A stretch of 64,000 nt of DNA, from assembly GCA_003252075.1 (NCBI GenBank), contig QKDO01000113.1, forward strand, positions 1-64,000. Direction: 5' to 3'. The notes under the pieces were generated by a model, which saw nothing but the letters and a program-made list of their open reading frames with translations, did no database searches and had not been told where the DNA came from. This document shows, one piece after another, positions 8,941 to 51,345 of the stretch. The stretch is from Nitrospirota bacterium. Lineage in GTDB: Bacteria; Nitrospirota; Thermodesulfovibrionia; Thermodesulfovibrionales; UBA6898. Within the stretch, counting starts at the first letter, position 1. Every line of letters begins with the position of its first letter. The position numbers were made by a program, and so were the translations under genes.

Positions 8941-9852
8941 TTATCCGGTTATGATTTCGTATATCTCTTTGTAACGGGCGATGGTCTTTTTTACGATATT
9001 ATCCGGGAGCTCGGGACCGGGATAGGTCTGCTTCCAGTCAAGGGTCAGGAGATAGTCTCTTACGATCTGCTTGTCATAGCTGTCCTGCCCTTTTCCGGGC
9101 TGGTAGGTCGTCGCTGACCAGAAACGTGAGGAGTCAGGGGTCAGCACTTCGTCGATCAAGATGAGCTCGTCATTGAACATGCCGAACTCGAACTTGGTGT
9201 CAGCAATGATAATTCCTTTTTTCTCGGCTAGGTCGCGCGCCCTCGTATAAACCTGTAGGCTCACGTCCCTGAGCCTCTCCCCAATCTCCTTGCCGACGAT
9301 ATGGACCATCTCTTCAAAAGAAATATTGATGTCATGTCCTTCATCAGCCTTTGTGCTTGGCGTAAAGATCGGCTCCGGTAGTTTTGAGGACTCTACAAAC
9401 CCGTCAGCAAGCTTCATGTTGCATACCGTGCCGCTATTTTTATATTCTTTCCAGCCCGATCCCGACAGGTAACCCCGCACAATACATTCCACCGAGATGG
9501 GCTTTGCCCTCTTCACGAGCATACTTCGGCCATCTAGCTGGTCTGCATATTTGTGGCAGATTGCAGGATAATCCCTGACTTCGGTCGCAATAATATGGTT
9601 CTTAATAATATCCTCCATCTGGCGGAACCAGTAGAGCGATATCTGCGTCAGCACCCTGCCTTTTCCAGGAATCCCGTTTGGCAGGACTACATCAAAGGCA
9701 GATATCCGGTCTGATGCGACCAGAAGGAGGTTATTATCAACCTCGTATATGTCGCGAACCTTTCCCTTTCTCAGGAACCTGATATCTGGCATGTCAGTCT
9801 GCAACAGGACGTCTTTCATCATATTCACCTCACGTCGTTTTTGGACATTCAT
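8941..9852 (-). CDS. purC: Phosphoribosylaminoimidazole-succinocarboxamide synthase
   Basis: SAICAR synthetase motifs ([40 protein letters not shown]). Confidence 0.96.
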
Positions 9853-12542
9853 TTTACCTCAAGGGTCATTTTTTTTCGCCTCAACAGCTTTTCTAACTCA
9901 ACAGCAACAAACACCACTGACGAAAGCAGGAACGTAAGGAGTAGCTCATTTAGGGTCAGCGGCTCTGTCTTGAATATCGGGTTCAGCGCCGGCACATAAA
10001 CCGTTGCCATCTGCAGGACAAAGGTCAATACCACCGCACCGAGCAAATATTTATTCGAAAATATTCCTAATGCAAAAAATGACTCTTTTTCCGACCTCAA
10101 GGCCAGAACATTTCCCATCTGGCTCAGGCATAACACGGTGAAAACCATCGTCTGCCAGTGCGCATGGCCGGTTTTTAAAGCCCATGCCTGAGTGAACAGG
10201 GAAACAGCCCCCATAAGAAGGCCTACCCAGATTATGTCGATTCCGAGGCTCTGGGCAAATATACTCTCCTGCGGATGTCGTGGTGGTCGGTTCATGATCC
10301 CTTTCTCCGCAGGCTCTGCAGCAAGTGCAAGCCCCGGGAGTCCATCCGTGACGAGATTGATCCAGAGTATATGGATAGGCAGCAGGGGGATAGGAAGTCC
10401 AAGAAACGGGGCGAGAAATATCGTCCATATCTCTCCGGAGTTGCTCGTCATCGTGTATTTGATAAACTTGCGGATATTATCAAAAATCCGCCTTCCCTCT
10501 CTAACAGCCTTTACGATCGTAGCAAAATTATCATCGAGGAGTATCATATGAGCAGCTTCCTTCGAGACATCCGTACCGGTAATGCCCATCGCAACACCGA
10601 TGTCCGCCCGCTTCAACGCCGGGGCATCGTTCACGCCGTCGCCTGTCATGGCAACAAACTGCCCTTTGTCCTGAAGAGCCTTCACGATCTTCAGCTTTTG
10701 TTCAGGGGTGACCCTTGCATAGACTCTGACAAAGCCGACCCTCTCTTCAAATTCCTCAAGGCTGAGTTTCTCAAGCTCACGACCGGTCATCACCGTCCTT
10801 ACGTCATCCTGAACAATGCCGAGTCGTCTGGCTATCGCCTTCGCTGTGATCGGATGATCACCGGTAATCATTACGGGATGTATGCCGGCCGTTGTGCAGA
10901 GCGATACCGCTTCTCTGGCTTCTTCTCTCGGAGGGTCTAACAACCCCACGAGACCGAGGATGGTGATCCCCGTTTCAGTGCGTTCGGGGTTCATGTCTTC
11001 CGGCATCGTCGTCCACTTTCTCATGGCTAAGCAAATAACCCTCAGGCCGTCAGCAGCCATTCTTTCATTTGTCTGCTGGATCTCGGCAGGATCAATTTTT
11101 CTTAACCCTTCACTGGTCAATACATTTACCGCCTTGTCGATTAGCACGTCAATTGCGCCTTTGGTGAACGAAACATAACCAGAGCTCCATGCATGAAAGG
11201 TGGTCATGCACTTTCTGTCGGAATCAAAGGGGATCTCTGATACACGTGAGTATTTTTTTTCAAGCTCATTTTTGCCAAAGCCCTTTTTCCCTGATATGTT
11301 GTACAGCGCAACTTCCGTGGGATCGCCGATCACGTTGCCGGAGGCGTCCAACTCCGAATCATTGCTTATCGCCAAGGCAGTAAAGAGCAGGGAGAGAGGC
11401 TGAAAATCCGCAGGCTGGCCCGGCTCGGCAGTCGCTTCCTCCAAATCTCTTGCGTTAAAGATTCTGCCGTCTGCATATATCTCCTCAACAGTCATCCTGT
11501 TCACGGTGAGCGTACCTGTCTTATCAGAGCAGATATATGTTACGGAACCGAGCGTTTCTACAGCCGGCAGTTTCCGTATCAGGGCATTTTGTTTTACGAG
11601 CTTCTTTGCTCCAAGGGCCAGGGAGATGGTTATCACTGCAGGAAGCGCCTCCGGTATGGCTGCCACAGCCAGTGAAATGGCTGTCAGCAGCATCAGCAGG
11701 GGGGCTTCTCCCCGTATGACGCCGATAACAAAGACAATGACACATATTGCCAGAACGGCAGCAGCAAGCTTCTGGCCGAAGCTTGCGAGTCTTTTCTGGA
11801 GGGGTGTCTTGACTTCCTCCTCTTCCTGGAGCATCGTAGCAATTTTCCCAAGTTCTGTCTCCATACCGGTCGCAATCACGAGTCCCCTGCCCCGCCCATA
11901 CGTGGCAAACGTTCCCTTGTACGCCATATTCTTTCTGTCGCCGATCGGTAGATGTTCGTCATGCAGAGGTGCGGTATTTTTTTCAACGGGGACTGATTCT
12001 CCCGTAAGGGCTGCCTCTTCTACCCGCAGTTGTGCAGACTCCAGAAGTCTCATGTCTGCAGGGACAACATTTCCAGCCTCAAGAATGACGATATCTCCAG
12101 GCACCAGCTCAGAGGCCGCAATGACCGAAGGCATGCCGTTCCTCATGACTGTTGTAGATGGAGCCGACATCTTTTTAAGGGCTGCCATGGCCTTTTCTGC
12201 ACGGTATTCCTGGACGAAACCGATGACTGCATTGAGGACGACTATCACGATGATGGCAATGGTATCAGAAAGTTCGCCAAGGAAACCTGCGATAATGGCA
12301 GCGGCGATAAGGACAAGAATCATGAAATCCTTGAACTGATCAAGGAATATCATGAACGGCGTCTTCTTCTTTTTCTCTTTTAATTCATTAGGACCATATT
12401 CCAGCAGACGTCTCTGTGCATCGTCTGAAGACAGTCCCTTTACCGAAGATTGCAGTGCATTTACAACATCTTTAACCGTTTTCTGATGCCAATGCATGTA
12501 TTCCTCTTTGTCGGTCTGGGCAATATGCAACTGTCGTTCCAC
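9849..12542 (-). CDS. P-type cation-transporting ATPase (P2A-like, Ca2+/Mn2+ type)
   Basis: 897 aa; [11 protein letters not shown] phosphorylation motif, [40 protein letters not shown]; preceded by a yybP-ykoY-like riboswitch. Confidence 0.93.
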
Positions 12543-12559: not shown

Positions 12560-12860
12560 CAATCCTGCCTTCTGAATATGTCGAACAGCCCGTCGAGCCC
12601 TGTCTTTTCCACTTTGTTACGGCATAAAGCTCTGCGGTCTCCGCGCAGATCTCTTCACATTCCGAGGACTCGTAAACTTATCTTATCGTTGATTCCTACG
12701 AGTTCCATGCTGCATTTCAGACATCTCGCGTTTCGTCGTATCTTCAATCACTTCTTCTCTTCCACGACGAGTTTTCGATGCCTCTCCTCCTCAAGCTTTT
12801 TTCGTACTCGATCACTGAAATATACCCTTCATTAGGCAATTTCCTTGAACTCGTAGGCAC
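12560..12860 (-). pseudogene. Degenerate small ORF with CxxC remnants between the Mn riboswitch and the ATPase
   Basis: Minus strand: good SD (TTAAGGAGG) and GTG start at 12860, then coding-like text split across frames: ...EGYISVIEYEKKLEEERHRKLVVEEKK / RCLKCSMELVGIN / SSECEEICAETAELYAVTKWKRQG. Confidence 0.35.
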
Positions 12861-12898
12861 GACGGCCTCCTTAAGTACGATTTTCCGTCGAAGCGAAA

Positions 12899-12950
12899 AG
12901 ACCTTTACTACAACTAACAGCCCATGTACACATTAATTGCAGTAAAGGTC
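12899..12950 (-). terminator. Intrinsic terminator / expression platform of riboswitch 2
   Basis: Minus strand: GACCTTTACTGCAATTAA...TTAGTTGTAGTAAAGGTC-TTTT, about 18-bp stem with two G-U pairs; its 5' arm overlaps the P1 3' strand of the aptamer. Confidence 0.8.
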
Positions 12951-13038
12951 TTGCTTATCATGTTATCTGACCAGCGAAGCCGGTCCACCTCAGACAGACG
13001 TATTGATGACCGTCACTGTCCAGCTACTCCCCGTCTAC
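12943..13038 (-). promoter_or_regulatory. yybP-ykoY (Mn2+) riboswitch aptamer, copy 2, upstream of the P-type ATPase
   Basis: Minus strand: GTAGACGGGGAGTAGC...GCAAGACCTTTAC, the conserved GGGGAGUAG...GCAAGACCUUU core of the yybP-ykoY element. Confidence 0.82.
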
Positions 13039-13150
13039 ATCCAAAGCACGCTATCATCTCAATGAAGCAATGTTAGTGACGAAGCAACTGAGAACTTATT
13101 ACCAGCCCGCAAGGCAAGAGGCCAGGGTGAAGTATCATCGCTTCTGATTG

Positions 13151-14014: not shown

Positions 14015-14073
14015 AAAAAAACCTTTACCCCGGCCGCATGAAACTACTGCTTTCACCGACGAGGATAAAGGTC
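14015..14073 (-). terminator. Intrinsic terminator / expression platform of riboswitch 1
   Basis: Minus strand: GACCTTTATCC...GGGGTAAAGG-TTTTTTT; the 5' arm is the 3' side of the aptamer P1 stem. Confidence 0.75.
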
Positions 14074-14176
14074 TTGCCTGTTATACTTCATGTTTTGTAT
14101 ACCTGACTGAACCGGTCTGTGGCAACAGACGTGCTGACGATCCAGCCACCCTATCTGGGTGCTACTCCCCTTTACC
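14063..14176 (-). promoter_or_regulatory. yybP-ykoY (Mn2+) riboswitch aptamer, copy 1, upstream of htpX
   Basis: Minus strand: GTAAAGGGGAGTAGC...GCAAGACCTTTATCC, near-exact match to the conserved yybP-ykoY core. Confidence 0.88.
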
Positions 14177-14218
14177 ATTCATATTTTAAAGAATACCGAA
14201 TTGCCTGGTCAATAAAAA

Positions 14219-50949: not shown

Positions 50950-51077
50950 AAAGATATATTTTTATAGTTTATTAAAAAATTCCTTCCAATACAAGGAAAA
51001 AACTCTTTCTTATGAAAGAATTTTTCCTTGCTCAAACTGATGAGATTTGTTTAAATAGAGCATATCGGGTATGAGTT

Positions 51078-51251
51078 ACCTGCCCTGCAGGTGATATGTG
51101 AAAAAGTTGATCCGGCAAATTAGATCTTTCGGGAGCCTGTGTAATGCACTGGTGTGCATATTGGCCATGTGCCAAAAGCCTGAAGGTGCATTTAAGGCAC
51201 CCACCTATATTTTAGGCGGATCTGATTCTTCACATACACGGCAGGGCGGGT
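51078..51251 (+). ncRNA. ssrS: Probable 6S RNA
   Basis: Closing stem ACCUGCCCUGC/GGCAGGGCGGGU (11 bp incl. one G-U) plus GUG-A-UAUGUGAA/UUCACAUA-CAC and GAUCCG/CGGAUC; about 174 nt rod with a central region containing GGCACCCACCU; lies directly upstream of rarA. Confidence 0.75.
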
Positions 51252-51345
51252 TTCTGATTATCCTTATTACAAAGCTGTTGTCTGTGGTCAAGGCGCTTTT
51301 GGCTGGTAGCATAGAGAGGTCTCATAGAGAAAACAAGGGATGTCG

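Follow-up and report, generated by a model that had tools for sequence, protein, structure and literature searches.

A predicted Mn2+ riboswitch of the yybP-ykoY class without the P2 arm upstream of a P2A-type ATPase gene, and its twin before htpX, in a Nitrospirota genome

Control of P2A-type ATPase genes by Mn2+ riboswitches is already known from YoaB of L. lactis, S. pneumoniae and C. difficile; the C. difficile CD2503, L. lactis YoaB and Streptococcus pumps are the precedents (PMC11477304). Published structures of aptamers of this class show Mn2+ at the N7 atom of a strictly conserved adenosine, numbered A41 in L. lactis and A48 in X. oryzae, and the L1 loop gives an A-minor contact (PMC6754395). 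The E. coli mntP switch, which controls MntP, is described as translational with involvement of Rho (PMC11647493). With the locus described here, a Mn2+ switch and a target class, both already known, are extended to an under-annotated bacterial group.

The window is the whole stretch of DNA analyzed, 64,000 nucleotides of a contig from a Nitrospirota bacterium. On its minus strand lie, in the order of transcription, aptamer copy 1, htpX, aptamer copy 2 with its terminator, a decayed zinc-ribbon gene and a P2A-type ATPase gene (Table 1). All letters quoted in an earlier, sequence-only reading of this locus are found on the minus strand, and the two same-strand riboswitches bracketing htpX, about 1.1 kb apart from start to start, are confirmed. 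The reading also placed a P-type ATPase gene downstream of copy 2. The gene is present, but its start at 12497 is about 400 nt away, with the decayed gene between. Both this decayed gene and an A.C mismatch beside the L3 loop, which is more telling than the P1 difference that the reading pointed out, were overlooked.

Table 1 Features of the riboswitch locus in the window, in the order of transcription
Feature	Position	Strand	Evidence
Predicted Mn2+ riboswitch aptamer preceding htpX (copy 1)	14060..14178	minus	R1 45.9 bits, E 2e-10; RF00080 20.8 bits, sub-threshold
Terminator of copy 1, overlaps P1 3' strand, followed by U7	14015..14073	minus	sequence and folding
htpX, M48 membrane metalloprotease, 279 aa	13151..13990	minus	NCBIfam HtpX 422 bits, cut-off 369
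Predicted Mn2+ riboswitch aptamer copy 2, yybP-ykoY class, without P2 arm	12937..13041	minus	leave-out covariance model R1, 58.1 bits, E 6.9e-14
A instead of the G found in nearly all copies; A.C mismatch within the helix that adjoins the L3 metal loop	13007	minus	alignment of 27 copies
Adenosine in UCAAU, equivalent to Mn2+-contacting A41 (L. lactis)/A48 (X. oryzae)	13004	minus	invariant in 27/27 aligned copies
Intrinsic terminator of copy 2, 18-bp stem and UUUU	12896..12950	minus	sequence and RNA folding
Decayed zinc-ribbon (PF13453-type) gene with in-frame stops	12568..12804	minus	tblastn of relatives' intact proteins, 47% identity, E 9e-16, through the stops; translations; family taken from the intact gene
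P2A-type cation ATPase, 882 aa, intact	9849..12497	minus	Pfam and NCBIfam; start set by homologues; PDB relatives LMCA1, SPCA1, SERCA

Copy 2 resembles the L. lactis yoaB switch (a member of RF00080) in the core GGGGAGUAGC...UCAAU...CCGG...GCAAGACCUUU, in the opposition of P1 to an intrinsic terminator and in the P2A ATPase gene downstream. It differs in scoring under the Rfam cut-off, in the absence of the P2 arm, in a bulged P1 and in the A.C pair beside L3. The C. difficile CD2503 and S. pneumoniae systems share the target class and the riboswitch with the window, whereas the window belongs to another phylum, has the decayed zinc-ribbon gene intervening and carries a second switch on htpX. 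Unlike the switches of E. coli mntP and alx, the latter of which encodes a TerC-family protein, copy 2 has an intrinsic terminator predicted to control an ATPase gene.

The core pattern GGGGAGTAGC-N60..90-GCAAGACC occurs 28 times, in 20 of the 61 related genomes searched; the same pattern read backwards gives no site in these 61 relatives. In a public genome set, sites occur in Bacillota, Pseudomonadota, Chloroflexota and others. We trained a covariance model, R1, on 16 relatives; the window, the sister species and the htpX copies with a P2 hairpin were excluded. R1 matches copy 1 (Table 1) and, more strongly, copy 2, with E values for the latter of 6.9e-14 in 74 kb and 2.7e-12 in the whole genome. 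The whole-genome search with R1 returns exactly two copies, both in the window and flanking htpX, supporting the two-copy regulon around htpX that had been proposed. The same leave-out model recovers the validated Mn2+ switches of E. coli mntP (24.3 bits) and alx (22.1 bits). In the training alignment, 12 pairs are changed on both sides (31 such cells), and 96% of the cells are paired; none of 500 shuffles is as high, and slid structures are far lower. The L1 core GGGGAGUAGC/GCAAGA and the adenosine contacting Mn2+ do not vary among the 27 aligned aptamers, which include the window copies, and neither does any other core position; the local UCAAU of copy 2 is identical to the L. lactis stretch. 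The leave-out match, the covariation and the invariant core bear out the assignment to the yybP-ykoY Mn2+ class made in the sequence-only reading and show, by homology and covarying structure, that copy 2 belongs to it.

In copy 2, the L1 core is closed by P1, which contains one bulged C. The P2 arm and the four-way junction are missing from copy 2 and most relatives, and the htpX copies of the genus have a short hairpin there. P2 looks optional, because the P2-less model R1 matches many Bacillus sites over its own full length. The arms of the copy 2 terminator (12950-12933 and 12917-12900) form 18 pairs including two G-U by inspection, and UUUU follows directly at 12899-12896. The 5' arm starts within the P1 3' strand (GACCUUUAC), so that the 18-bp terminator sharing this strand, as first described, is confirmed from sequence and folding. 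A terminator-like hairpin that takes in the P1 3' strand is also found in 28/28 examined leaders of relatives. Pattern scans for promoters and terminators gave nothing above shuffles; the terminator scan covers loops of 3-8 and omits these hairpins.

The P1 3' strand is common to aptamer and terminator, and the ON-switch logic of the terminator is supported. We infer that copy 2 binds Mn2+, in which direction it switches and which ion is transported, and the whole explanation, a Mn2+-sensing yybP-ykoY riboswitch acting as a transcriptional ON switch before a Mn2+-exporting P2A ATPase, appears highly likely. At low Mn2+, the 18-bp terminator would capture the CCUUUAC strand, and transcription would stop. 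At high Mn2+, the ion would bridge the L1 loop (GGGGAGUAGC...GCAAGA) and the L3 loop (UCA), and the P1 helix stabilized by Mn2+ would hold the CCUUUAC strand, so that the terminator would not form and the P2A ATPase gene would be transcribed. The ATPase would then export Mn2+, perhaps Ca2+ too. The neighboring copy 1 would act likewise on htpX.

The ion site of the ATPase should be noted. The nearest solved structures are Listeria LMCA1, followed by SPCA1 and SERCA, all of which share the P2A fold and the M4 and M6 site residues with the window ATPase. The equivalents of SERCA E309, N768, E771, N796, T799 and D800 are retained, and Gln occupies the E908 position. The N768/E771 pair in M5 is thus SERCA-like, whereas in LMCA1 the E771 position is taken by Ala. 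Assignment to the PMR1 type from the best HMM was rejected, since the score is below the cut-off, as it is for the SERCA-type equivalog, and the M5 site is SERCA-like. In yeast Pmr1, Gln783 favors Mn2+, which may not apply to bacterial pumps; this position is Leu in the window ATPase and, where readable, in the other riboswitch-linked P2A ATPases. Two other proteins of this genome match the ATPase at 39-43% identity and differ at the ion-site residues.

The claim that the ATPase is probably a Mn2+ exporter draws its support from context, since the residues of the metal site are those of SERCA. This context comprises the other riboswitch-linked P2A ATPases, the YoaB and Streptococcus precedents and the lack of any match to MntP, TerC or GDT1 in this genome. 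Judged by this context, the ATPase probably exports Mn2+. Alternatively, it could pump mainly Ca2+ and respond to Mn2+ since high Mn2+ upsets the Ca2+ balance or since both ions are carried. The Ca2+-type ligands, the replacement of E908 by Gln, the Leu at the Gln783 position and the scores under both equivalog cut-offs are consistent with a Ca2+ pump, as is a Na/Ca-exchanger gene in the same gene run as the ATPase gene in another genome of the genus (G007). However, the other riboswitch-linked P2A ATPases have the same ion-site residues wherever readable, with either E or Q at E908, protection from Mn2+ toxicity has been reported for YoaB (PMC11477304), and the genome offers no MntP, TerC or GDT1 alternative, though it encodes three cation-diffusion facilitator (CDF) proteins. 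A mainly Ca2+-pumping enzyme is considered unlikely. With Mn2+ export as the preferred reading, the riboswitch context guides the annotation of a 'calcium' pump.

Gene order upstream of the ATPase varies. The zinc-ribbon gene is intact at the same position in several relatives. The sister species lacks it, and there the ATPase gene begins 111 nt after the riboswitch. In G007, the order is riboswitch, htpX, Na/Ca exchanger and ATPase, with no second riboswitch; the exchanger gene (L197 3172-4361) takes the place of the latter between htpX and the ATPase gene. At its other end, the ATPase gene of the window overlaps purC (8941-9852, minus strand). In G037, a purC (L005, 567-1446 downstream of the aptamer) follows a riboswitch-led UPF0114 gene. 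The same riboswitch-led transcripts may include purC.

Copy 2 shows several oddities. The difference in the P1 5' strand noted in the sequence-only reading is present, but it consists of only one extra base (GUAGA-C-GG), and seven pairs are still possible with the C bulged. The pair at 13007 is G-C in 25 of 27 copies, including that of the sister species, and a compensated A-U in one; the A.C is unique to copy 2. The R1 score of copy 2 (58.1 bits) is 30 bits lower than that of the sister-species copy (87.6 bits). In purely thermodynamic calculations, which ignore Mn2+ and co-transcriptional folding, the aptamer fold with forced P1 is -17.9 kcal/mol in copy 2 versus -32.8 kcal/mol in the sister species, the terminator is stronger in copy 2 (-26.9 versus -22.5 kcal/mol), and the energy gap between the states of copy 2 is 20.0 kcal/mol, within the relatives' range of 10.6-23.5. 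In copy 2, 27 of the 29 model pairs are still formed, no worse than in several intact relatives. The view that copy 2 is structurally ruined is weakened by these pairs and by the energy gap. For copy 2, a shift toward OFF, retuning or incipient decay are possibilities. Different set points of the two window copies, as suggested earlier from the P1 strands, are plausible.

It is quite unlikely that copy 2 is a decaying riboswitch that switches poorly and keeps a strong terminator, with the ATPase gene mostly silent or served by another promoter. The unique mismatch beside L3, the bulged P1, the loss of 30 bits, the long perfect terminator and the decayed gene right after copy 2 would fit such decay. 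The ATPase gene of G007 (86% identical), located behind htpX and the Na/Ca-exchanger gene without a second riboswitch, would fit it as well. On the other hand, copy 2 retains every ligand-site residue and 27/29 pairs with an energy gap inside the relatives' range, and the ATPase reading frame behind it is intact. A functional switch is preferred.

The behavior of the Rfam model RF00080 should also be described. A match to this model, proposed as a check in the sequence-only reading, was not obtained for copy 2 at the gathering level, and neither window copy reaches the gathering cut-off of 45. The relaxed whole-genome search finds the htpX copy only, at 20.8 bits, and copy 2 is absent from the RF00080 results even at relaxed thresholds, both on the local stretch and in the whole genome. 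With the E limit raised to 10, the other Rfam matches in the local stretch are microRNA-like or snoRNA families, and were rejected as chance matches on the long terminator hairpin. Among 22 core-motif sites from other bacteria, RF00080 passes 5 and misses 17, and its gathering score misses every core-motif copy in the 61 relatives. The cut-off is therefore a sensitivity limit, not a defining feature. The folding energy of the copy 2 stretch is below those of 200/200 shuffles (z -4.5), mainly because of the terminator. The reading that only a terminator or attenuator hairpin exists and the likeness to the aptamer arose by chance, to which this origin of the z-score and the missing gathering-level match would lend themselves, has a negligible probability, being refuted by the leave-out match of R1 and opposed by the covariation, the invariant core, the empty reversed-pattern control and the target genes common to several phyla. 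With copy 2 taken as a riboswitch, the Mn2+ regulons of this group are probably invisible in current annotation, because the Rfam model does not call the switch. This blindness and the link to htpX are the main interest of the locus.

Among the targets of the 28 order-level copies, HtpX is the commonest (13), followed by the P2A ATPase (8, 4 of which lie behind a zinc-ribbon gene); L007, for example, leads to a zinc ribbon and the ATPase, and L016 to the ATPase. The remaining targets are carbonic anhydrase (2), UPF0182 (2), TerC (1), UPF0114 (1) and a zinc ribbon followed by UPF0182 (1). Switches before carbonic anhydrase, UPF0114, UPF0182 and zinc-ribbon genes were observed in the relatives' loci L011, L024, L005, L013, L023 and L026. 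Across phyla, the first recognized gene within 900 bases in 157 site listings, in which some sites appear twice in overlapping loci, is TerC in 50, HtpX in 18, the P2A ATPase in 17, a zinc ribbon in 11 and MntP in 6. Another 50 listings have no assigned gene, because the query set is small or the locus ended.

The pairing of htpX with TerC-type genes recurs outside the order. In the Geobacter (L123) and Geomonas (L154) records, htpX and then terC lie behind the switch, which R1 matches there, and in Selenomonas (L058) a TerC-like gene is followed by htpX behind the switch. HtpX co-purifies with the B. subtilis TerC proteins MeeF and MeeY (PMC10550928), and this could plausibly explain why htpX would be under Mn2+ control. 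The riboswitch may thus command more than exporters, with HtpX as its commonest target in the order and with Mn2+ excess answered by membrane-protein quality control that is coupled with TerC-type metal delivery; we put this forward tentatively, with some doubt. The twin switch before htpX makes the link between HtpX and manganese directly testable.

Two further observations were made. The sister-species contig (L096, VEOY01000185.1) matches the MAG 'Nitrospirae bacterium MnB_6 Mn-Nitrospirae-1', suggesting a manganese-rich source. A 6S RNA is located at positions 51074-51256 of the window, on the plus strand, with a score of 98.7 bits.
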